This document shows, in pieces, positions 4,911-20,368 of a stretch of 64,000 nt of DNA. This DNA is from Burkholderia sp. IMCC1007. GTDB taxonomy: Bacteria; Pseudomonadota; Gammaproteobacteria; Burkholderiales; Burkholderiaceae. Each line of letters begins with the position of its first letter. Within the stretch, counting starts at the first letter, position 1. The stretch spans positions 1 through 64,000 of the forward strand of contig NZ_JAPVQY010000008.1 in NCBI RefSeq assembly GCF_027257875.1, written 5' to 3'. A model generated the notes under the pieces. The model did no database searches, had not been told where the DNA came from, and was given only the letters and a program-made list of their open reading frames with translations. The position numbers and the translations under genes are program-made.

Positions 4911-4927
4911 TCCCGTAAAAGCTCACC
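4911..4927 (-). repeat. isolated iteron-like site (RepA-type), minus strand
   Basis: On the minus strand this 17-mer reads GGTGAGCTTTTACGGGA, matching the origin iteron consensus at all conserved positions. It sits between the convergent argC and DmlR-like genes, about 11 kb left of the main array. Confidence 0.65.
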
Positions 4928-7564: not shown

Positions 7565-8044
7565 TCACAGCCCGAGATCGGACAGACCGGGATGATCGTC
7601 CGGGCGACGACCGAGCGGCCAGTGGTACAAACGATCCGCTTCACGGATCGGCAGATCGTTGATGCTCGCATGGCGATGCGCCATCAGTCCGTTTTCGTCG
7701 AACTCCCAGTTTTCGTTTCCGTATGAACGGAACCAGTTGCCGGCATCGTCGTGCCATTCGTACGCGAATCGCACCGCGATGCGATTGCCGCCGAACGCCC
7801 ACAGCTCCTTGATCAGCCGATAGTCGAGCTCGCGCGTCCATTTCCGCTGCAGCAGGCCGACGATCTCGTCGCGGCCCGTCACGAACTCCGCGCGATTGCG
7901 CCAGCGGCTTTGCGGCGTATAGGCGAGCGACACGCGCTGCGGATCGCGCGTGTTCCATGCATCCTCCGCGGCGCGCACTTTCTGGCGCGCCGTTTCGAGC
8001 GTGAAGGGCGGAACGGGCGGACGAACTTCCGGGGAAGCGGACAT
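7565..8044 (-). CDS. SnoaL-like nuclear transport factor 2 family protein (DUF1348 type)
   Basis: A 159-residue cytoplasmic protein of the NTF2-like fold. Features of the DUF1348 group are [14 protein letters not shown]-like text near residues 20-35, [20 protein letters not shown], the [20 protein letters not shown] strand pair and [12 protein letters not shown]. The biochemical role of this group is not established to my knowledge. The start at MSASPEV has an AGGAG site 7 bases upstream. It lies just downstream of the TetR gene on the same strand (54-bp gap), so both may be one repressible unit. Confidence 0.85.
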
Positions 8045-8098
8045 GGGATGCTCCTGTTCAAGGTTCTGGCCGCGCACGAGCGTGGCCGTCGGGACGAA

Positions 8099-11786: not shown

Positions 11787-12398
11787 ATGGCAAGTTCCTC
11801 CGGGTCGCGGCGCACGCGTGCCGACGCCGCACCGCAGCAGCCGGCCGCGACGCCGCCGCGTGTCGGCGAGCAGATCCAGCGCCTGCGCAACGAGCGCAAG
11901 CTCACGCTCGACGACCTGTCGCGCGCGGCCGGCGTATCGAAGTCGATGCTCTCCGAGATCGAGCGCGACAAGGCCAACCCGACGATCGCGGTGGCTTGGC
12001 GGCTCACGAACGCGCTCGGCATCACGCTCGACGAACTGTTCTCGCAACCGAAAGCGCCCGAGACGATCCGTGTGGACGGCCCGCACGACATTCCGACGCT
12101 GGCTGGCCACGACGGCCGCTACCAGTTGCGCGTGTGGGGCCCGATCGACCTGGCCGGCAAATTCGAGTGGTACGAACTGACGCTGCCGGGCGGCGGCGCG
12201 CTCGTATCGAACGCACACGAACCCGGCACGCGCGAACACCTGACCGTGCTGCAGGGCGCGATGGAAATCGAAGCCGCCGACGCGAGCCGCCGCCTGAAAG
12301 CGGGCGACACCGCCCGCTATCCGGCCGACACGCCGCACGCCATCCGCAACCCCGGCAAGGCCGAGGCGCGCGCACTACTGATCGTGATTCATCGCTGA
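11787..12398 (+). CDS. XRE-family regulator with C-terminal cupin domain
   Basis: A 203-residue regulator with two domains. A Cro/C1-type HTH spans about residues 26-82 (GEQIQRLRNERKLTLDDLSRAAGVSKSML). A cupin small-molecule domain occupies about 110-203 and includes HEPGTREHLTVLQG and YPADTPHAIRNPG. This architecture is common for amino-acid-responsive regulators. It is divergent from kbl-tdh over a 161-bp gap that contains an AT-rich imperfect inverted repeat (near 11738-11756). I infer that it controls threonine degradation; the effector is not evident. Confidence 0.88.
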   Translation: MASSSGSRRTRADAAPQQPAATPPRVGEQIQRLRNERKLTLDDLSRAAGVSKSMLSEIERDKANPTIAVAWRLTNALGITLDELFSQPKAPETIRVDGPHDIPTLAGHDGRYQLRVWGPIDLAGKFEWYELTLPGGGALVSNAHEPGTREHLTVLQGAMEIEAADASRRLKAGDTARYPADTPHAIRNPGKAEARALLIVIHR

Positions 12399-12426
12399 CG
12401 ATGCGTATAGCTGGCCGAATGGCCAG

Positions 12427-12456
12427 TTGCGGAAAATACTGTATGTTTGTACAGTA
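12427..12456 (+). promoter_or_regulatory. SOS (LexA) box overlapping a promoter
   Basis: At 12437-12456 the 20-mer TACTGTATGTTTGTACAGTA has perfect TACTGT and ACAGTA arms around an 8-base spacer. It matches the gammaproteobacterial and betaproteobacterial LexA consensus CTGT-N8-ACAG with both flanking TA pairs. It overlaps a plausible sigma-70 promoter (TTGCGG at 12427, 17-base spacer, TACAGT at 12450). The next gene on the plus strand starts at 12527, 70 bases downstream. Confidence 0.8.
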
Positions 12457-12526
12457 TACGGACATTCCGCCATGCATGGCCGGGTCGGCGCACCGAGGCG
12501 CCTGCTTCGGCCGACAGGAGCCTGCG

Positions 12527-12904
12527 ATGACAGAAGAACAAGATTTGGCCGCGCTCAGCTTCAAGGCTGCCGCGCACGACCTCGAACTGATCGTCCGCCA
12601 TATTGCCGGGCGCTACATCCGCCAGCGCGTCCCGCTGTCGTGGCGTCTGCTGCACGCCATCGAAGCCGAGGCGCTGGCCGATCTCGGCTTTGCCAGCCGG
12701 CATGAAGCCGCTATGCGCCAGTTGTTCGAGCGCCCGTCGGACATGACCTTTCCCGAAACGGACGATCCGATCGATTTCGGCCGATCGAACGCACTCCCAG
12801 CCGTGTTCTCGTTCGCGGTGCTCGCCTATGAAGCAGCGGCAGCGTCGCAGAACGCGTCGCCGCGCGAGCGCGCGCCCCGTCCGTCGAAGGCTTGGGGCGA
12901 CTGA
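12527..12904 (+). CDS. hypothetical protein, first gene behind the SOS box
   Basis: A 125-residue, mostly helical, soluble protein I do not recognise. It has an acidic N-terminus, a central helical section with LELIVRHIAGRYIRQRVPLS and HAIEAEALADLGFAS, and a hydrophilic Ala/Arg/Pro-rich tail. The ATG has a CAGGAG site. No signal peptide or membrane segment is visible. It lies between a LexA box and the recombinase-like gene on the same strand (106-bp gap), so the two may be co-expressed in the SOS response. No function can be assigned. Confidence 0.72.
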   Translation: MTEEQDLAALSFKAAAHDLELIVRHIAGRYIRQRVPLSWRLLHAIEAEALADLGFASRHEAAMRQLFERPSDMTFPETDDPIDFGRSNALPAVFSFAVLAYEAAAASQNASPRERAPRPSKAWGD

Positions 12905-13010
12905 CGCCACGCCCGGGCCGTCCAGCGCGGCGGCCTGCTCCAGCATCCTGCTTACTGCCCGAGACGTTGCGGAAAGGGCTACCATACACGCAACTAACGG
13001 AATAAATAAC

Positions 13011-14024
13011 ATGTCTCTTCCCACGCCCCCCGACATCCCCGCACGGCCTGAAGAAAAGGACCTGTTCGACCGCGGCGCGTCCGACTGGATCGTCTCGCCC
13101 GAAACCGCGTTCGACGCATGGCTTGCCATGCAGGACTACCGTCGTTCATCGGCCGACGTCTATCGCGCGCAATGGGGCGCGTTTCTCACCTGGCTGCGTG
13201 CTCATCAGAAGAACCTCGCCACCGTCGATACCGCGTCGATCGCTCACTTCGTCGGTGAGCTTCCGATCCGGAAAACGCAACGAATGCGCTATTTGAGATT
13301 GATCGAGCGCGTGCTCGACCATATCCGGCGCACCGAGTTCGCATCGACCAACCCTGCCCGCTTCATTGCTCAGGATGGCGAAGCGACTTGGCGAAAGGCC
13401 CGTGACAACGAGCCGACCGGTTTCCTGACACCGACTGAACGCGCGAAGTTGCTCGCTTACCTGTTTTCGCCAATCGGCGTGTCCGGTTCCGCGTACTGGA
13501 AGGAGCGGCGTGATCGCGCGCTCGTTGCCGCGTTTCTCGGCGCTGGCGTGAAAACCGGCGAAGCGCGTGCACTTACGATTAGTTGCATCAATACCAGCGG
13601 CACATCGTTGCAGATCCAGTCGACGCATCCCGATTTCGCGCGCGAAACCCATCTCGCATCGTTCGCGATCGCGTTGCTGGAAGCATGGCTCGTGGAACGC
13701 AAGCGTCAGGAAATTCCGGGCGAACTCGTGTTCCCCGCATCGCATGCCGGCCGGCCGATGCACAAGGCAACGATGCTGCGCGCGATCGACGCGATCGTCG
13801 AATCCGCCGGGCTCACGTCGTCGCGCACTGCGCGCGCGAGTCCGCAAACGCTGCGCAACACCTACGCGGCCGAACTGTTCGAACACGACGTGCCGCCCGA
13901 GCGGGTCGGCAAATGGCTCGGTTTCATGCGCCCGATCTCGTCGAACCGCCTGCATCGCGCGTGGAAAAACTGGCGCGATGATCTCGCCAACGGTGATGCG
14001 TCCGACCAGGACGAAACTCACTGA
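13011..14024 (+). CDS. tyrosine-recombinase-fold protein lacking catalytic residues
   Basis: A 337-residue protein with an N-terminal SAM-like core-binding domain (about 33-115) and a C-terminal region that aligns with the XerC/XerD catalytic domain. The key residues are changed. The box I arginine is Lys181 (GAGVKTGEARAL). The box II H-x-x-R pair reads Gln279-Thr-Leu-Arg282. The following His/Trp position is Asn283 and LGH is LGF (Phe305). The nucleophilic tyrosine position, nine residues on, is Leu314, and no tyrosine occurs after Tyr285. Known family chemistry would therefore not work; DNA binding could remain. It sits 1.7 kb left of the iteron array, next to the KfrA-like gene. Confidence 0.82.
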   Translation: MSLPTPPDIPARPEEKDLFDRGASDWIVSPETAFDAWLAMQDYRRSSADVYRAQWGAFLTWLRAHQKNLATVDTASIAHFVGELPIRKTQRMRYLRLIERVLDHIRRTEFASTNPARFIAQDGEATWRKARDNEPTGFLTPTERAKLLAYLFSPIGVSGSAYWKERRDRALVAAFLGAGVKTGEARALTISCINTSGTSLQIQSTHPDFARETHLASFAIALLEAWLVERKRQEIPGELVFPASHAGRPMHKATMLRAIDAIVESAGLTSSRTARASPQTLRNTYAAELFEHDVPPERVGKWLGFMRPISSNRLHRAWKNWRDDLANGDASDQDETH

Positions 14025-14095: not shown

Positions 14096-14136
14096 TCCCG
14101 AAAAACCTCACCTCAAGCTTCCCGGACAATCTCACC
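14096..14136 (-). repeat. pair of inverted iteron-like sites
   Basis: Minus-strand 17-mers at 14096-14112 (GGTGAGGTTTTTCGGGA, a perfect consensus copy) and 14120-14136 (GGTGAGATTGTCCGGGA, two changes) lie 24 bp apart. They occupy the gap between the convergent recombinase-like and KfrA-like genes, and their orientation is opposite to that of the main array. Confidence 0.75.
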
Positions 14137-14163
14137 TGTGACACCGCGCCGGCGATCGGCGGC

Positions 14164-15363
14164 TCAGCTGCGCGCAAAGCGCGCGACAGCCTCGAATCGG
14201 GAAGGCCATGGCCCCGACGCATGTTCACATTCCGGGCACGACACTTCGAAGCCGTCGTCGCCACGTGACAACTCCGGCTCTCCGTCGCAATGCGGGCACT
14301 CGTTCGGGACCGGTATCTCGTGATCCAGCGACGTCCCGATCGCGGAAAACGCGTCTGCGTCGAGCTGGCCGGCATCGGCCAGCCGCCGAATCAGCGCCGA
14401 GATCTCCGGACTCATGCCGCGGCTCGCGCGCAGCGTGTTCGCCTCGCGCGTCGCGCGTTCCAGTTCGTCGCTCTGGGTGCGCAACTGCTCTTCGAGCCGG
14501 TCCGCACGGGCCTTGGCCGAACTCAGTTGCTGAAGAAAATCGAATTCTTTGCGTTGCACGTCGCGCAGGCCGCTCTGGTACGTCGAAGCCATGCTGCGCA
14601 GCGAATCGAGTTCGACCAGCATCGGTTTGACGCGGCGCTCGGCTTCGGCCACCGCGTCCTTGATCTGCTGCGCATAGTGTTCGGTGCGCTGCTGCAATTC
14701 GGCTTGCAACGTATCGATGCGATCGCGTAACGCAGCGTTCTGCGTCTGTTCGGCGTCGACGCGGCTGGCCATGGCAGCCAGTTCCTTCTCCAGTCGGGCG
14801 ACTGTGGTGAGCAGCGTCGCTTCGTTTGCCGAACCGTGCGTCGATTGCGACGCGAGTTGCACTTCGAGTTCGGTCACGCGTGCTTGCAGCTGGTCGTTGC
14901 GGGTTTCGCTGCGGGCCAGCGCGCCTTCGAGCGTTTCCTGGCGAACGGTGGCGTCGCGCAGGCGCTGCTCCGCGTCGGTCACGGCTGCACGAATCTGTTC
15001 ACGGTCGCCGTCGAGGCTTTCCCGGGCGGCTTTCAACGCTTCTTCATAGAGCGCACCAAGCAACGCGGCCGCCTTTTCCTCCACAGCTTTCGGAATCGCC
15101 GCGCCGTCGAGCCTGACCTTGGACGCGGAGCGGATGCGCTCCCAGAAGTGATCGATGTCCTTCGGAATGTCGCTGGCGCTGCCCGTCTGGGTCAGATCCC
15201 GGACATTGGCGGCCGACGGCCGAATGCCGAGATCGAAGAACAGACGCTTGCACGCATGCAGCGACAATTCCTGACGTCGAGCGCCGCTCGCGCGCAGCGA
15301 TTCGAGTTCTTCCCGGATGGCGTGACGGATTTCATCCAGCGTCATGGCGTGGCTCACAGACAT
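14164..15363 (-). CDS. KfrA-like DNA-binding coiled-coil protein with C-terminal zinc ribbon
   Basis: A 399-residue protein. Residues 1-115 resemble the KfrA N-terminal DNA-binding domain of plasmid proteins (MTLDEIRHAIREELESLRASG, LFFDLGIRPSAANVRDLT). Residues about 120-325 are a long heptad-rich coiled coil. The C-terminus has a CPHC ... CPEC zinc-ribbon pair, which I do not know from classical KfrA. KfrA proteins autoregulate and contribute to plasmid stability and nucleoid structure (known family). An ATG at 15345 is an alternative start. The gene reads away from the iteron array, and its promoter region forms the left edge of the origin. Confidence 0.82.
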   Translation of the reverse strand: MSVSHAMTLDEIRHAIREELESLRASGARRQELSLHACKRLFFDLGIRPSAANVRDLTQTGSASDIPKDIDHFWERIRSASKVRLDGAAIPKAVEEKAAALLGALYEEALKAARESLDGDREQIRAAVTDAEQRLRDATVRQETLEGALARSETRNDQLQARVTELEVQLASQSTHGSANEATLLTTVARLEKELAAMASRVDAEQTQNAALRDRIDTLQAELQQRTEHYAQQIKDAVAEAERRVKPMLVELDSLRSMASTYQSGLRDVQRKEFDFLQQLSSAKARADRLEEQLRTQSDELERATREANTLRASRGMSPEISALIRRLADAGQLDADAFSAIGTSLDHEIPVPNECPHCDGEPELSRGDDGFEVSCPECEHASGPWPSRFEAVARFARS

Positions 15364-15404: not shown

Positions 15405-16805
15405 TTTTTTTCGTCGACCGTCGCGAATTTACGTCGCTTCGCACAGAAATCGGGTCTGTGAGGCGATTCACGCGAGTGGCGCTTCAAATCCCGTGAAACA
15501 AAGCGAAGAATGGCTGTCAAGTCATTGTATTACAAGCGTTTTCATGCACGCCTCCAAAAAGGGCATTTGTTTCACATGACAGCCGACATCGCAGCCTGTG
15601 GGTGTTCAGGGGTTGGTGTGTCTGTGGAAAACTCGGGAACGAAGGTCTTGAGAGTATTAGAAGTAAACACCCTTGAACCCTTAGTTAAAAACGTTAACGC
15701 CACGGCACAGCCTTATCCAGCAAGGCTTTCCGGCCGACAAGGTGAAGTTTTACGGGACCCAAGGTGATCTTTTGCGGGAGCAGAAGTGATGGGGTTCGGG
15801 GAGCTGCGTGAGCCGATGCAGGAAAGGTCGTGAGCGGATTCGGGATCACAGTCAAACACGCGTTTTTTCAAAGGTGAGGCTTTTCGGGGCCATACAGCCA
15901 CAGAACCCGCGCTGTGCCTGCGTGCACAGATTTCTGCCTGTGCAGACATAGGTGAGATTTTGCGGGACCTTCTTCGCGCCCTGATTCTGCCCATCTTTTA
16001 GGCGTTTTTCCCGAAAGGTGAGGTTTCACGGGACTCACAGCAGATTTGCTGTGAGGATTTCCGGGAACCGGCCGCCATTTTGCACAGAAAAGCGCGCTGC
16101 GGGGCCTGTGATGCCCGAAAGGTGAGGCTTTTCGGGACGCAAATCCGGGGTTTCCTGCCCGCATCCCGCTGAGGTGAGGTTTTTCGGGAGCTAGATCACA
16201 GCCGGAGATCATGCTCACAGGTGAGGATTTTCGGGAGTCCAATTTGCCCGGAAATTGGTCAAAGGTGAGCCTTTTCAGGACCTGTGACCCGAGTAATTCG
16301 CTGAAAAGCCCGCCAGGACTGGCCGAAATCCGATTTTCGCTGTGCCACTTTTTGGCACAGGTGAGGTTTTTCAGGAGTCGGCACACAGCTGTCGCACTCG
16401 CTTCGAGGCCGGAAAGGTGAGGCTTTTCGGGGGGAGATCGTCCAATGCAGCCGAACGCCAGTTGCGCCTAAGTATCGGATGCGATTGAGATTTTTGATAC
16501 CGCGCCAGTTACGGTGAGATTTTTCGGGAGTCGCTTTTGCGTCCGTTGCAGCGCCGTTTTTTTCAATAAGGTGAGGCTTTTCGGGAGGTCTTGCCGGCTA
16601 GTCCCGCGCGTGTCGGGGATTCGTCGACGAGCGGGTCACAGGATTACGGTTCGCTTGGGTGAGGATTTTCGGGACCGAACGTATTCTGTGCGCTGTACAA
16701 TGCGCGCCCGGGCCTGTGAAGCGGACCCGCTTCACGCTCCGGAGCCGCTTTTCGGGTTGTGTTTCCGTATGCCGCGCGTGATCGCGATCCGCCGGCCAGC
16801 CGCGC

Positions 16806-16821
16806 CTGTACATGCATACAG
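16806..16821. promoter_or_regulatory. second LexA-box-like sequence, inside the origin
   Basis: CTGT-N8-ACAG with exact half-sites (CTGT ACATGCAT ACAG) lies in the largest gap of the iteron array. The outer flanks are C and G in place of the preferred TA pairs, so it is weaker than the box at 12437. A chance match is possible. Confidence 0.4.
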
Positions 16822-16892
16822 GCCTGCACAGGGCCCTCGCAGCGATGCCGTGCGATGCAGCGGAGACGCTGTGACCGATGCACGTCGGAGGA

Positions 16893-16908
16893 GTCGTAAA
16901 ATTACGAC
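16893..16908. promoter_or_regulatory. inverted repeat upstream of iteron 16
   Basis: GTCGTAAAATTACGAC is a 16-bp inverted repeat with one central mismatch, 10 bp left of the iteron at 16918 and about 260 bp before repA. Its position fits an operator for repA autoregulation, but nothing else supports this. Confidence 0.4.
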
Positions 16909-17166
16909 AAATCTAAAGGTGAGGTGATACGGGAGCCGGTTCCGCACGTGTCGCGCACAGGCAAAAATCTGTGAACCGGCGCATCCCGCGACACGTCTGG
17001 AAGAGTCCGGAACGCCCGGATTTCGGACCGGTGAGCGTTTTCGGGAGGCCGTTGGGGTGAGTGCCGCTTTGCACGCGCGCTTCACCGGCTATGGTGAGTA
17101 TGTCGTTCTGGACGCACATCACCACAGGCGCTATCCTTCCGGGAAACTTCTCCTCCGACCCGACGC

Positions 17167-18531
17167 ATGGCCACGAAGCGCGCCAAGAAAACCGATGTGG
17201 ATGTGGTGAGTGCCAGTTCAGCCGAATTGCGTAAGGCCGTCGAGGCGATCGCAATTCAGCCGAAGAGCGGCAAGATCACGCTCCTTACCCGCAAGCTGTT
17301 CAACGTCCTGCTCGCCGTCGCGCAGCAGGCCGACGACTCGGGCGATACCTATCGCGCGCTGCTGTCGGACATCGTCGCCAACTCCGCCTTCGATTCGAAC
17401 GACACCGCACTGGTGAAGGAACACCTGCGCCGCATGGTGTCGGTCCAGGTCGAATGGAGCACGGGCACGTCGAGCCAGAAGCCGGGCCGCAAGTGGGGCA
17501 TTTCGACGCTGATTGCCGATGCCGAAATTCTCGAGGATCCGGCCACCCGCCGCGTGTGGGTCGAATTCTCGTTCGCACCGAAGATCAAGAAGAAGCTGCT
17601 GGACCCGGTGCAATACGCGCGCCTGAGCCTGCAGTTCCAGAGCCAGCTGCGCAGCAGCGCGGGTCTCGCGCTGTACGAAATCTGCGTGCGCTATCTGACG
17701 AACCCAAGCCATCTGACGATGCGCGAACCGTGGGAATGGTGGCGTCCGATTCTGTCGGGCACGCCGGATACTGAAGCCGGCGACGAGGCGAAGCGCGAGT
17801 ACAAGTACTTCAAGCGCGACTATCTGCGCCCGGCGATCGCCGAGGTCAACGCAGTCACCAACATCTTCGTCGAGCTGATCGAGCATCGTGAAGGGCGGCG
17901 GGTCGCGGAGATCCAGTTCCGCGTGACCGAACGCAAGCAGCCGATGCTCGCGCTCGACGAGCATCCGAACGTGTTCGACAGCACGCTGGTCGACCGGATG
18001 GTGAAGCTCGGGATCCCGCTCAAGGAAGCGCAGACGCTCTACGCGGACAGCGAGGAAAACCGGATCCGCGCGGCGCTGCAGATGACCGAGCAGCGGATGC
18101 GCAGCACGACGCTGCCGCCGGTGCGCAGCGCGCCGGCGTTGTTCAAGGATGCGCTGAAGAAGGGTTATGCGCCGCCGGTGGAGTCCGTCGATGCGCTGCC
18201 GGCCGGCACGCCGTCGGCGAAGGTCGTCGCGCCGCAGCCGGACGATTTGAAAGCGCGTCTGCTGAGCGAATTCGCGGCGTTCCGCCGCAAGGAAGCGAAG
18301 GTGCTCTACGAGGAGCAGGGCGACGCCGAGCGCGAAGTGGCGCTCGAGTCGTTCGAGTCGGAGGTGTTGCCGACGATGGGCTCGCACCTGCGTGACGACT
18401 GGCGCAAGCGCGGCCTCGAGTCCAAGCTGGCCGAGACGGCATTTTTCGACTGGCTGGCCCAGAAGACCTGGGGCGAGCCGACCGACGGCGACCTGCTGTC
18501 GTTCACCCTGAATCAATCGCGGGCCGCCTGA
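17167..18531 (+). CDS. repA: replication initiator protein of the Rep_3 family
   Basis: A 454-residue initiator that should bind the upstream iterons and open the origin. Residues about 40-265 match the twin winged-helix Rep_3 fold (LLTRKLFNVLLAVAQQ, FSFAPKIKKKLLDP, LRSSAGLALYEICVRYLTN, YKYFKRDYLRPAIAEVN). The C-terminal 190 residues are a charged extension of the kind found on Burkholderia secondary-chromosome and megaplasmid initiators. Classical Rep_3 proteins are nearer 250-350 residues. The ATG follows a CTCCTCC-rich leader with no strong ribosome site, consistent with low expression. It converges with parB. Confidence 0.92.
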   Translation: MATKRAKKTDVDVVSASSAELRKAVEAIAIQPKSGKITLLTRKLFNVLLAVAQQADDSGDTYRALLSDIVANSAFDSNDTALVKEHLRRMVSVQVEWSTGTSSQKPGRKWGISTLIADAEILEDPATRRVWVEFSFAPKIKKKLLDPVQYARLSLQFQSQLRSSAGLALYEICVRYLTNPSHLTMREPWEWWRPILSGTPDTEAGDEAKREYKYFKRDYLRPAIAEVNAVTNIFVELIEHREGRRVAEIQFRVTERKQPMLALDEHPNVFDSTLVDRMVKLGIPLKEAQTLYADSEENRIRAALQMTEQRMRSTTLPPVRSAPALFKDALKKGYAPPVESVDALPAGTPSAKVVAPQPDDLKARLLSEFAAFRRKEAKVLYEEQGDAEREVALESFESEVLPTMGSHLRDDWRKRGLESKLAETAFFDWLAQKTWGEPTDGDLLSFTLNQSRAA

Positions 18532-18620: not shown

Positions 18621-19682
18621 TCACTCCGACAACAGCATCCGTTCGAGCTGCTCGAGGATCGCGTCGCGCTTTTCCTTCGGAAGCCCGCGCAGGCGCAGTT
18701 CGATGCGGTCTTCGCCATACGACTTCAGGTCGCCGACCGACTTGCCGCCGAGCTTGATCTCGAGACGTTGCGCATAGCGCTGCCGCCCCGCCGGCTTCGG
18801 CGTCTCTTGTGCCGCGACACGGCCCTTGACGATGTCCGACACCTGACGCGTGCTGAGGTCGTCCGACACGATCTTGTTGATCAGTCGCAGCGTGGCCTCG
18901 GTGCCGCGCGCATTGTGATAACGGCCGACCTGATACGCCATGTTCGAACCGAAGCGATCGGGACGCGCGACCATCTCCTGCATGACCGCTTCCGGCAGCT
19001 TGCCGATCGACAGCGCAACGGCGACCGTCGACTCGTCGAGGCCAAGATGTTCGGACAGCTCCTTCTGGCTCTGGAAATGTTTGTCGTCGAGGAACCGGCG
19101 CCACACGACGGCGTTATCGAAGACCGTCTGCGAATCGCGTTGCACGTTCAGGTCGTACCCGAGCTTGTAGCTCTGGATACCGATCGGCACGTCGATGACG
19201 ATCGCCTTCACCGATTCCTTGTTCGCTTCCTTCAGTGCGCGTACGCGGCGGCCGCCGTCGCTGACGAAATATGTGCCCGGATTGTCGTAGTCCGGAATCA
19301 CGTGAATCGCCTGCTGTTGCCCTTGCTTCGCGAGGTTGACCGCGAGCTCGGCGATCGACGATTTCAGATAGAAGTGCCGCGGGTTGAACGGGCTATGCTT
19401 GATCGTCTTCAGCGGCAGCTCGATCACCTGGCCAGGTGCATAGCGGTTCTCGAGACGCCACGCGCGATATTGCGCCGACTCGTCGGTCGACGGATCGAGC
19501 AGGACTTCCGGCACGGGCGGCGGCGCGATGTCCTTTTTCGCGGACTTCGTCGGGGCCGGCGTGGCCGTCTCGGACTTGACGATGCCGTCGATGGCATTCA
19601 GGCGGTCAAGCGCAGTGCGCTTCTCGCTCGTCGTGATATCCGGGCGCGCTTGGAATCCTTTTGCAAATTGGGAGGGCTTCAT
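18621..19682 (-). CDS. parB: chromosome partition protein ParB
   Basis: A 353-residue centromere-binding protein. The ParB/sulfiredoxin-like CTPase domain is at about residues 60-180 (box GGRRVRALKEA, and NPRHFYLKSSIAELAVNLAKQGQ-like text before it). The HTH follows (SQKELSEHLGLDESTVAVALSIGKLPEA), then a linker and a C-terminal dimerisation segment ending MLLSE. It should load on the TTTATGCGCATAAA sites and recruit ParA. It is translated after parA on the same strand; the 23-bp gap between them contains one of those sites, which would allow autoregulation. Confidence 0.95.
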   Translation of the reverse strand: MKPSQFAKGFQARPDITTSEKRTALDRLNAIDGIVKSETATPAPTKSAKKDIAPPPVPEVLLDPSTDESAQYRAWRLENRYAPGQVIELPLKTIKHSPFNPRHFYLKSSIAELAVNLAKQGQQQAIHVIPDYDNPGTYFVSDGGRRVRALKEANKESVKAIVIDVPIGIQSYKLGYDLNVQRDSQTVFDNAVVWRRFLDDKHFQSQKELSEHLGLDESTVAVALSIGKLPEAVMQEMVARPDRFGSNMAYQVGRYHNARGTEATLRLINKIVSDDLSTRQVSDIVKGRVAAQETPKPAGRQRYAQRLEIKLGGKSVGDLKSYGEDRIELRLRGLPKEKRDAILEQLERMLLSE

Positions 19683-19705: not shown

Positions 19706-20368
19706 TCAGGGCAGCATGGCGACGATTTCGTCGGCACATGCGCGAATTTCCGCAGCGGCCAGCTTGGCGCCGCGATCGTTCATCTGCAGCACGGTCTGAC
19801 CGAGCGCCATCGCCTGCTTGTACGCTTCCCGGGTCGGGATTTGCGTTTTCAACAGCGGGAAGCCGAGATCCTCGAGTGCGCGCTTGAGCTCGCGCGTCAG
19901 CATCCGTTTCTCTTCGGTCTTGTTCAGCAGGAACACGGCGCGGAGGTCTTCATTCATCACTTGCGCCTGCTGGATCAGCTTGACCAACCCGACGCTCGAC
20001 CAGTAATCGGCCGGCGACGACGAAGTCGGGATCACGGCAATCGACGCGGCCAGCAGCACGACGCCCGATACTTTCTCGGTGATCGACGGCGGGCAATCGA
20101 CGACGATGATGTCGTAGTCGTTGATGAACTTCTTGATCTCGCGATGGATCTGGCCGCCGGCTTCGGCAAGGTTGACGACCGGGAAAGGAATGCCGGCGTC
20201 GCTGTCGCCAGACGCGCTCGACCAGTGAATCAGTGTGTTTTGACCGTCAGCGTCGATGACGAGGACGCGCTTCCCTTTCTCGTGGAATGCCGCGCCGAGG
20301 TGCATGGCAATCGTGCTTTTGCCGACGCCACCTTTTTGTTGAGTGACTGCAATGATTTCTGCGGCCAA
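19706..20368 (-). CDS. parA: partition ATPase ParA
   Basis: A 220-residue Walker-type ATPase that positions ParB-parS complexes over the nucleoid. The deviant Walker A is KGGVGKST near residue 13, Walker A' is VVDCPPS, and there is a VIPTSSSPADYWS switch region. The size is that of the short (type Ib-like) ParA, without an N-terminal HTH, so operon repression would fall to ParB or another factor. It is the first gene of the parAB operon, reading toward repA. The region upstream holds five more parS copies. Confidence 0.95.
   Translation of the reverse strand: MAAEIIAVTQQKGGVGKSTIAMHLGAAFHEKGKRVLVIDADGQNTLIHWSSASGDSDAGIPFPVVNLAEAGGQIHREIKKFINDYDIIVVDCPPSITEKVSGVVLLAASIAVIPTSSSPADYWSSVGLVKLIQQAQVMNEDLRAVFLLNKTEEKRMLTRELKRALEDLGFPLLKTQIPTREAYKQAMALGQTVLQMNDRGAKLAAAEIRACADEIVAMLP

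Follow-up and report, generated by a model that had tools for sequence, protein, structure and literature searches.

A LexA-boxed operon beside a secondary-chromosome origin

The 64,000-nucleotide stretch of DNA analysed here (positions 1 to 64,000 of contig NZ_JAPVQY010000008.1 of Burkholderia sp. IMCC1007), referred to as the window, is part of a Burkholderia secondary chromosome, and the nearest named locus listed belongs to B. anthina (99% over the recombinase gene described below). In the window, a LexA box precedes a gene for a DUF2471 protein, which is followed by a gene for a tyrosine-recombinase homologue that has lost its catalytic set. The full order is tdh and kbl (reverse strand), a helix-turn-helix (HTH)-cupin regulator gene (forward), the LexA box, the DUF2471 and recombinase-homologue genes (both forward), a KfrA_N-family gene (reverse), iterons, the RepA gene (forward), and the ParB and ParA genes (both reverse; Table 1). 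The genes we take to be tdh and kbl were named from their translations, with no family search behind the names.

The initial annotation described the box as near-ideal and as overlapping a promoter. The match to TACTGT-N8-ACAGTA is perfect, and the box lies over the inferred -10 hexamer and the spacer, so that LexA on this site would sit across the core of the promoter. A stricter sigma-70 promoter scan reported no promoter at the probable -35 and -10 hexamers. At up to 2 mismatches the box is unique in the window, where 0.12 such sites are expected and 12 of 100 shuffled sequences contained one. The 8.57-Mb assembly holds three perfect sites, the window box among them, and 11 sites at up to 1 mismatch, against 5 for the reversed control. 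Nine of these 11 loci were examined, and three of the sites precede genes that we take, by eye, to be recA, uvrA and a radical S-adenosylmethionine gene (like splB of PMC3323433). Therefore, the motif is the LexA motif of this genome. Other near-perfect boxes in the genome precede unassigned open reading frames (ORFs), including a 215-residue ORF in L100 and, in L103/L104, ORFs behind two adjacent boxes; these are possible further SOS genes. No terminator-like site was seen between positions 12300 and 14200 and, therefore, the DUF2471 and recombinase genes of the window are likely to share a single transcript.

The best 80 of 134 related loci were kept for comparison and, together with the window and three more loci, gave 84 rows (83 distinct proteins) spanning Burkholderia, Paraburkholderia, Trinickia and Caballeronia. 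Both the box core CTGTN8ACAG and DUF2471 are present in 84/84 loci. In the 80 database loci, 2.2-kb stretches contained 80 copies of the core and 2 of the control GACAN8TGTC. Alignment of 81 loci revealed two conserved upstream blocks, the box and GTTGC at 12426-12430 (each column of the latter kept in 78-80 of the 81), amid sequence that has mostly drifted. The spacer within the box is strongly conserved as well, as might be seen if the palindrome were the operator of another regulator, such as the HTH-cupin protein or the recombinase homologue itself. However, recA and uvrA of this genome are preceded by the motif as well, and so are diverse DUF2471 and imu loci in which the spacer differs, making an operator for a protein other than LexA highly improbable.

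Table 1 Features of the operon and the adjoining origin, with positions in the window
Feature	Position	Strand	Evidence or remark
Probable -35 hexamer TTGCGG	12427..12432	+	17 nt before the -10
LexA box TACTGTATGTTTGTACAGTA	12437..12456		perfect TACTGT-N8-ACAGTA; the right arm, TACAGT (12450-12455), doubles as the probable -10
DUF2471 protein, 125 residues, mostly helical	12527..12904	+	PF10616, 175.3 bits (cut-off 25), E=4.7e-52
Catalytically dead tyrosine-recombinase homologue, 337 residues	13011..14024	+	PF00589, 58 bits (cut-off 27.1), E=1.3e-15
Two outlying chromosome-2 iterons, directly 3' of the recombinase gene	14097..14137	+	0 and 3 mismatches to the chromosome-2 iteron core
KfrA_N-family protein	14164..15363	-	PF11740, E=3.6e-20; transcribed towards the operon; uncertain start codon
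Main iteron array of the secondary-chromosome origin	15740..17045	-	16 matches at up to 3 mismatches
RepA initiator (Rep3)	17167..18531	+	PF01051, E=3.6e-12
ParB	18621..19682	-	TIGR00180 above its cut-off; PF02195
ParA	19706..20368	-	NF041546, E=1.2e-66, above its cut-off

The recombinase homologue lacks the catalytic set

The second gene of the operon was initially described as XerC-like. The PF00589 fold bears out part of this description, and residues 27-277 of the structure model align with XerA, XerH, XerD, Cre and MrpR. However, the protein scores far below the cut-offs of the XerC and XerD NCBIfam equivalogs (51.3 of 329.6 bits for XerD and 42.3 of 335.15 bits for the other), although these are its best NCBIfam matches, and the window genome encodes a separate XerD that scores above the cut-off.

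All of the residue changes noted initially were confirmed. Lys181 aligns with the box I arginine of XerD, box II carries Gln279 and Asn283 alongside the retained Arg282, and Phe305 occupies the LG(H) position. The protein contains no tyrosine beyond Tyr285 and no hairpin lysine, and the column of the nucleophile, uncertain by one residue, holds either Leu314 or His315. The R-K-H-R-H/W-Y catalytic set is therefore absent. These changes are not peculiar to the window. Among the origin-adjacent homologues, all of which keep the box core, Lys181, Phe305 and the retained Arg282 are found in 84/84 rows, and the hairpin stretch is without lysine in 82/84. A tyrosine at position 315 occurs in 27/84 homologues and a histidine at position 279 in 12/84, with the two together in a single locus (L063). 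Other relatives (L009, L011 and L014) have a tyrosine at position 314 and lack the box II histidine and the second His/Trp.

Universal retention of Arg282, and the sporadic Tyr315 and His279 that meet in L063, could be read as traces of a protein that still recombines DNA, either through changed chemistry or as the inactive member of a heteromer. Loss of the box I arginine and of the second His/Trp in every row and of the hairpin lysine in nearly every row speaks against such activity, as does the variability of the tyrosine and histidine, neither of which the window copy possesses, and residual recombination is accordingly a very remote prospect. The homologue is not a decayed pseudogene either: none of the 84 rows has the catalytic set, homologues keeping R-H-R-H-Y were not found among them, and selection is strongly purifying. 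The median ratio of nonsynonymous to synonymous substitution rates (dN/dS) is 0.068 for the recombinase gene and 0.084 for the DUF2471 gene, and therefore neither is a pseudogene.

The LexA box accompanies DUF2471

The 125-residue product of the first gene was initially called unknown. The ORF stands and can be assigned to a family, DUF2471, the function of which is unknown. Its AlphaFold model has a mean predicted local distance difference test (pLDDT) score of 81.5. Four proteins searched against PADLOC for known anti-phage defence gave no match at E<=0.01.

Searches of 299 genomes from the taxonomic family of the window for the recombinase (E<=1e-8) and for DUF2471 (E<=0.01) gave recombinase matches, close and distant kin pooled, in 191 genomes and DUF2471 in 168. 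Within the window's genus, 41 genomes match the recombinase and 41 match DUF2471, and no member of the genus is among the unmatched genomes listed. A further 48 DUF2471 loci were compared, both paralogues and distant members, with orthologous copies from Pandoraea making up many of them. A box was accepted if it had 8/8 core positions with up to 2/4 flank mismatches, or 7/8 core positions with none. By this measure a box lies within 400 bp upstream of DUF2471 in 31 of the 48 loci, and in 4 more it lies at 526 bp, behind another small gene. Outside these upstream stretches, 126,236 bp contained 4 boxes.

On several plasmids DUF2471 is found downstream of imuB-dnaE2 or imuA-imuB-dnaE2 (L123, L125, L126, L127, L133 and L135). 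A box precedes imuA in all five of these operons for which the front was scanned (L125, L126, L127, L133 and L135), with 3 flank mismatches in L125.

Recombinase relatives without DUF2471 behave differently. A single box, downstream of the gene, was found in the 276,761 bp of their 27 loci, which represent 25 distinct places. A DUF2471 profile that recovered 8/8 positive controls gave no hit better than chance in these loci (best E 0.08). Conversely, a genus of the family designated g153 carries the box and DUF2471 alone: the 4 of its 11 loci that were read all keep tdh-kbl-HTH-cupin-box-DUF2471-KfrA-RepA-ParB, with no recombinase gene. In the Caballeronia locus L075, extra DNA separates the HTH-cupin gene from the box, and the box still directly precedes DUF2471. 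In these sequences, then, the box follows DUF2471 and not the recombinase.

Several other genes, related to the two families or lying near DUF2471, were seen. The window genome has a second, divergent DUF2471-like gene (L113:1354-1836) that scores just below the Pfam cut-off and has a LexA box upstream. A plasmid recombinase family (L118, L116, L119 and others), found in Cupriavidus, Pandoraea, Pseudomonas and other genera, has a lysine at the box I arginine position and RN in box II, with neither DUF2471 nor a LexA box. The window also contains a small-protein gene at 7565-8077, about 4.5 kb from DUF2471, with a similar protein encoded at L111:1003-1482; the latter gene directly adjoins DUF2471 in G007, which belongs to a different taxonomic family. 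Both small proteins are presumably SnoaL/DUF1348-like, a likeness seen by eye.

DUF2471 is paired with dead recombinases of two clades

Although the box follows DUF2471, the pairing with a dead recombinase recurs. On 6 plasmid-type loci (pBC25416, pBVIE02, a B. vietnamiensis plasmid, G409, G354 and G571), DUF2471 is followed by a dead recombinase, with an imuA homologue between the two in G571. The five complete recombinases of this type form a clade (100/99) separate from the origin-linked clade (91/99), and they have a threonine at the box I arginine position and no tyrosine at the aligned places. Because the tree has no resolved backbone, a single ancient pairing with later losses and two separate origins are equally possible.

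Taken with the box, these data favour a LexA-controlled operon in which DUF2471 is an SOS effector and the recombinase homologue is its non-catalytic DNA-binding partner, a reading to which we assign a probability of roughly 0.6. In the proposed mechanism, DNA damage would inactivate LexA, which would be expected to bind the box, and the two-gene operon would then be transcribed. DUF2471 would most likely be the primary SOS effector, acting in damage tolerance or in replication at the time of damage, because the family is found repeatedly behind LexA boxes or in imuA-imuB-dnaE2 operons. This company with ImuA, ImuB and DnaE2 would point to damage tolerance rather than to control of initiation. 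The recombinase fold would no longer cut DNA and would most likely serve as a DNA-binding partner, for targeting or regulation, physically or functionally associated with DUF2471; the analogy is with MrpR, which does so alone in SPbeta. The best reading of DUF2471 as a whole would be a previously unrecognised SOS effector family of the Burkholderiales.

Several observations weigh against this scheme. Of the 48 further DUF2471 loci, 13 have no box within 700 bp, and just one of these (L251) was seen to lie directly after dnaE2; in the plasmid loci L128, L129 and L134, about 12 kb contained no box. The partnership is not obligatory, since none of the 11 g153 genomes with DUF2471 has a recombinase match at the search threshold and the recombinase frame is broken in a few genomes. 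In L075 (L075:3013-4985), an opposite-strand ORF of 525 codons parts DUF2471 from the recombinase gene. Covariation beyond shared phylogeny is weak between DUF2471 and the recombinase (0.165, compared with 0.42 between the recombinase and KfrA), and structure comparison of DUF2471 gave no convincing match.

With the box following DUF2471, the recombinase absent from g153 and uncoupled in L075, and the covariation weak, it could be argued that DUF2471 alone matters for the SOS response and that the recombinase homologue is a domesticated, co-transcribed neighbour with an unrelated DNA-binding job. The dead recombinases of the second clade are harder to accommodate in this way, because their place next to DUF2471 on 6 plasmid-type loci is not readily a chance adjacency. 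We consider this alternative unlikely, and the strongest of those weighed here. A broader extension of the preferred partnership is tentative, and we hold it with less than even confidence: DUF2471 effectors and dead recombinases might form, across the Burkholderiales, a module that is triggered by damage and brings a replication or translesion function to DNA, with copies on secondary chromosomes and on megaplasmids and a fixed place next to the chromosome-2 origin.

With the DUF2471 result, a Pfam family without known function becomes a candidate SOS-regulon family that can be tested and is carried by more than half of the genomes searched (168/299), and the recombinase homologue provides a setting outside phages in which this fold has survived without its chemistry. 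If the partnership is real, the operon would represent a type of damage-response module characteristic of bacteria that have secondary chromosomes, tying plasmid mutagenesis operons to chromosome-2 biology.

Origin adjacency appears to be inherited

The claim that a chromosome origin lies beside the operon is borne out by the iterons, the Rep3 initiator, ParB and ParA. With the chromosome-2 iteron consensus of PMC4948915, the window contains 22 matches at up to 3 mismatches, compared with 0.09 expected. The two outlying iterons are oriented opposite to the main array, and more single iteron-like sites occur at 4912, 7465, 9279 and 31364. An AT-rich non-coding block at 15650-15705 (GAGAGTATTAGAAGTAAACACCCTTGAACCC...GTTAAAAACGTTAACGCC) lies between the KfrA gene and the iterons, is kept in most loci, with a diverged copy in g153, and is perhaps an origin element.

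A further proposal, that the damage-induced dead recombinase binds this origin and restrains or adjusts initiation, found little support. In its favour, the operon is syntenic with the KfrA gene in 80/80 database loci and with the RepA gene in 77/80, the three loci without RepA (L049, L057 and L080) being short, and the recombinase is under purifying selection with two iterons directly 3' of its stop codon. However, tdh, kbl and the HTH-cupin gene are also present in 80/80, and g153 has the same origin module despite having no recombinase. Adjacency that is common to kbl and tdh and that survives loss of the recombinase is therefore weak evidence for origin control, and it is more suggestive of inherited gene order than of function. 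Some conserved blocks are weaker in or absent from the recombinase-less g153 loci (15650-15671 found in 1/4; 15832, 17112 and 17118 in 0/4), but the 15650 block has its diverged copy there, and only 58-62% of the non-Burkholderia loci retain those at 15832 and 17112-17118. The origin showed no clear recombinase-specific footprint, and no operator was identified. Elsewhere, and also in favour of origin control, L204 has a recombinase relative about 6 kb from distant ParA and ParB homologues; that locus apart, the relatives read at other places have no RepA, KfrA, ParA or ParB homologue in 10-18 kb, and the 27 recombinase loci without DUF2471 have no RepA or KfrA of the window type. With DUF2471 found at other loci behind LexA boxes or in mutagenesis operons, a role for the recombinase homologue in origin control is improbable.

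Comparison with known systems

The operon was initially thought to have no described counterpart, which is too strong, as two studies are precedents in part. A 2012 study (PMC3323433) predicted two LexA-controlled hypothetical genes, hypA and hypB, in beta-proteobacteria with several chromosomes, with hypB exclusive to Burkholderia. The likeness is that of a LexA-boxed hypothetical gene, and hypB may be DUF2471. The main text of that study uses neither 'recombinase' nor 'origin of replication', and the term DUF2471 occurs in none of the papers searched. Likewise, the main text of PMC4948915, which gives an account of the chromosome-2 origin and its iterons, contains neither 'recombinase' nor 'integrase'. 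Searches of open-licence papers found no report of a family-wide SOS link for DUF2471, of its association with dead recombinases from two clades or of the natural absence of the recombinase in g153, and these three points appear to be new.

Among SOS operons, the imuA-imuB-dnaE2 mutagenesis operons share with the window operon a LexA box and, on several plasmids, DUF2471 as a downstream member, but the window operon has no polymerase genes. XerC and XerD share the two-domain fold with the window protein, which scores below their cut-offs and has lost the catalytic set. SroF-Sar of phage phi3T, as deposited in PDB entries 9rgl and 9rd5, likewise combines a recombinase-fold protein with a partner protein, and by this model the recombinase fold of the window would act as a repressor that SOS-made DUF2471 releases. 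In contrast to that system, the window genes share one SOS promoter, and DUF2471 gave no sign of kinship with Sar; a repressor-antirepressor pair is an improbable account of the operon.

The second precedent, and the parallel for a probable DNA-binding role of the recombinase homologue, is MrpR (YopR), the master repressor of the Bacillus prophage SPbeta, described in PMC10516654 as a recombinase fold that has lost catalysis and now acts as a repressor. Like MrpR, the window protein is a tyrosine-recombinase fold without the catalytic set, and MrpR is a DNA-binding protein in which most of the catalytic residues are gone and whose prophage is induced by mitomycin C. MrpR differs in keeping the hairpin lysine and the tyrosine, both of which the window protein lacks. 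Furthermore, MrpR is the repressor of a Gram-positive phage, whereas the window protein is chromosomal, is encoded beside an origin and is itself behind a LexA box.
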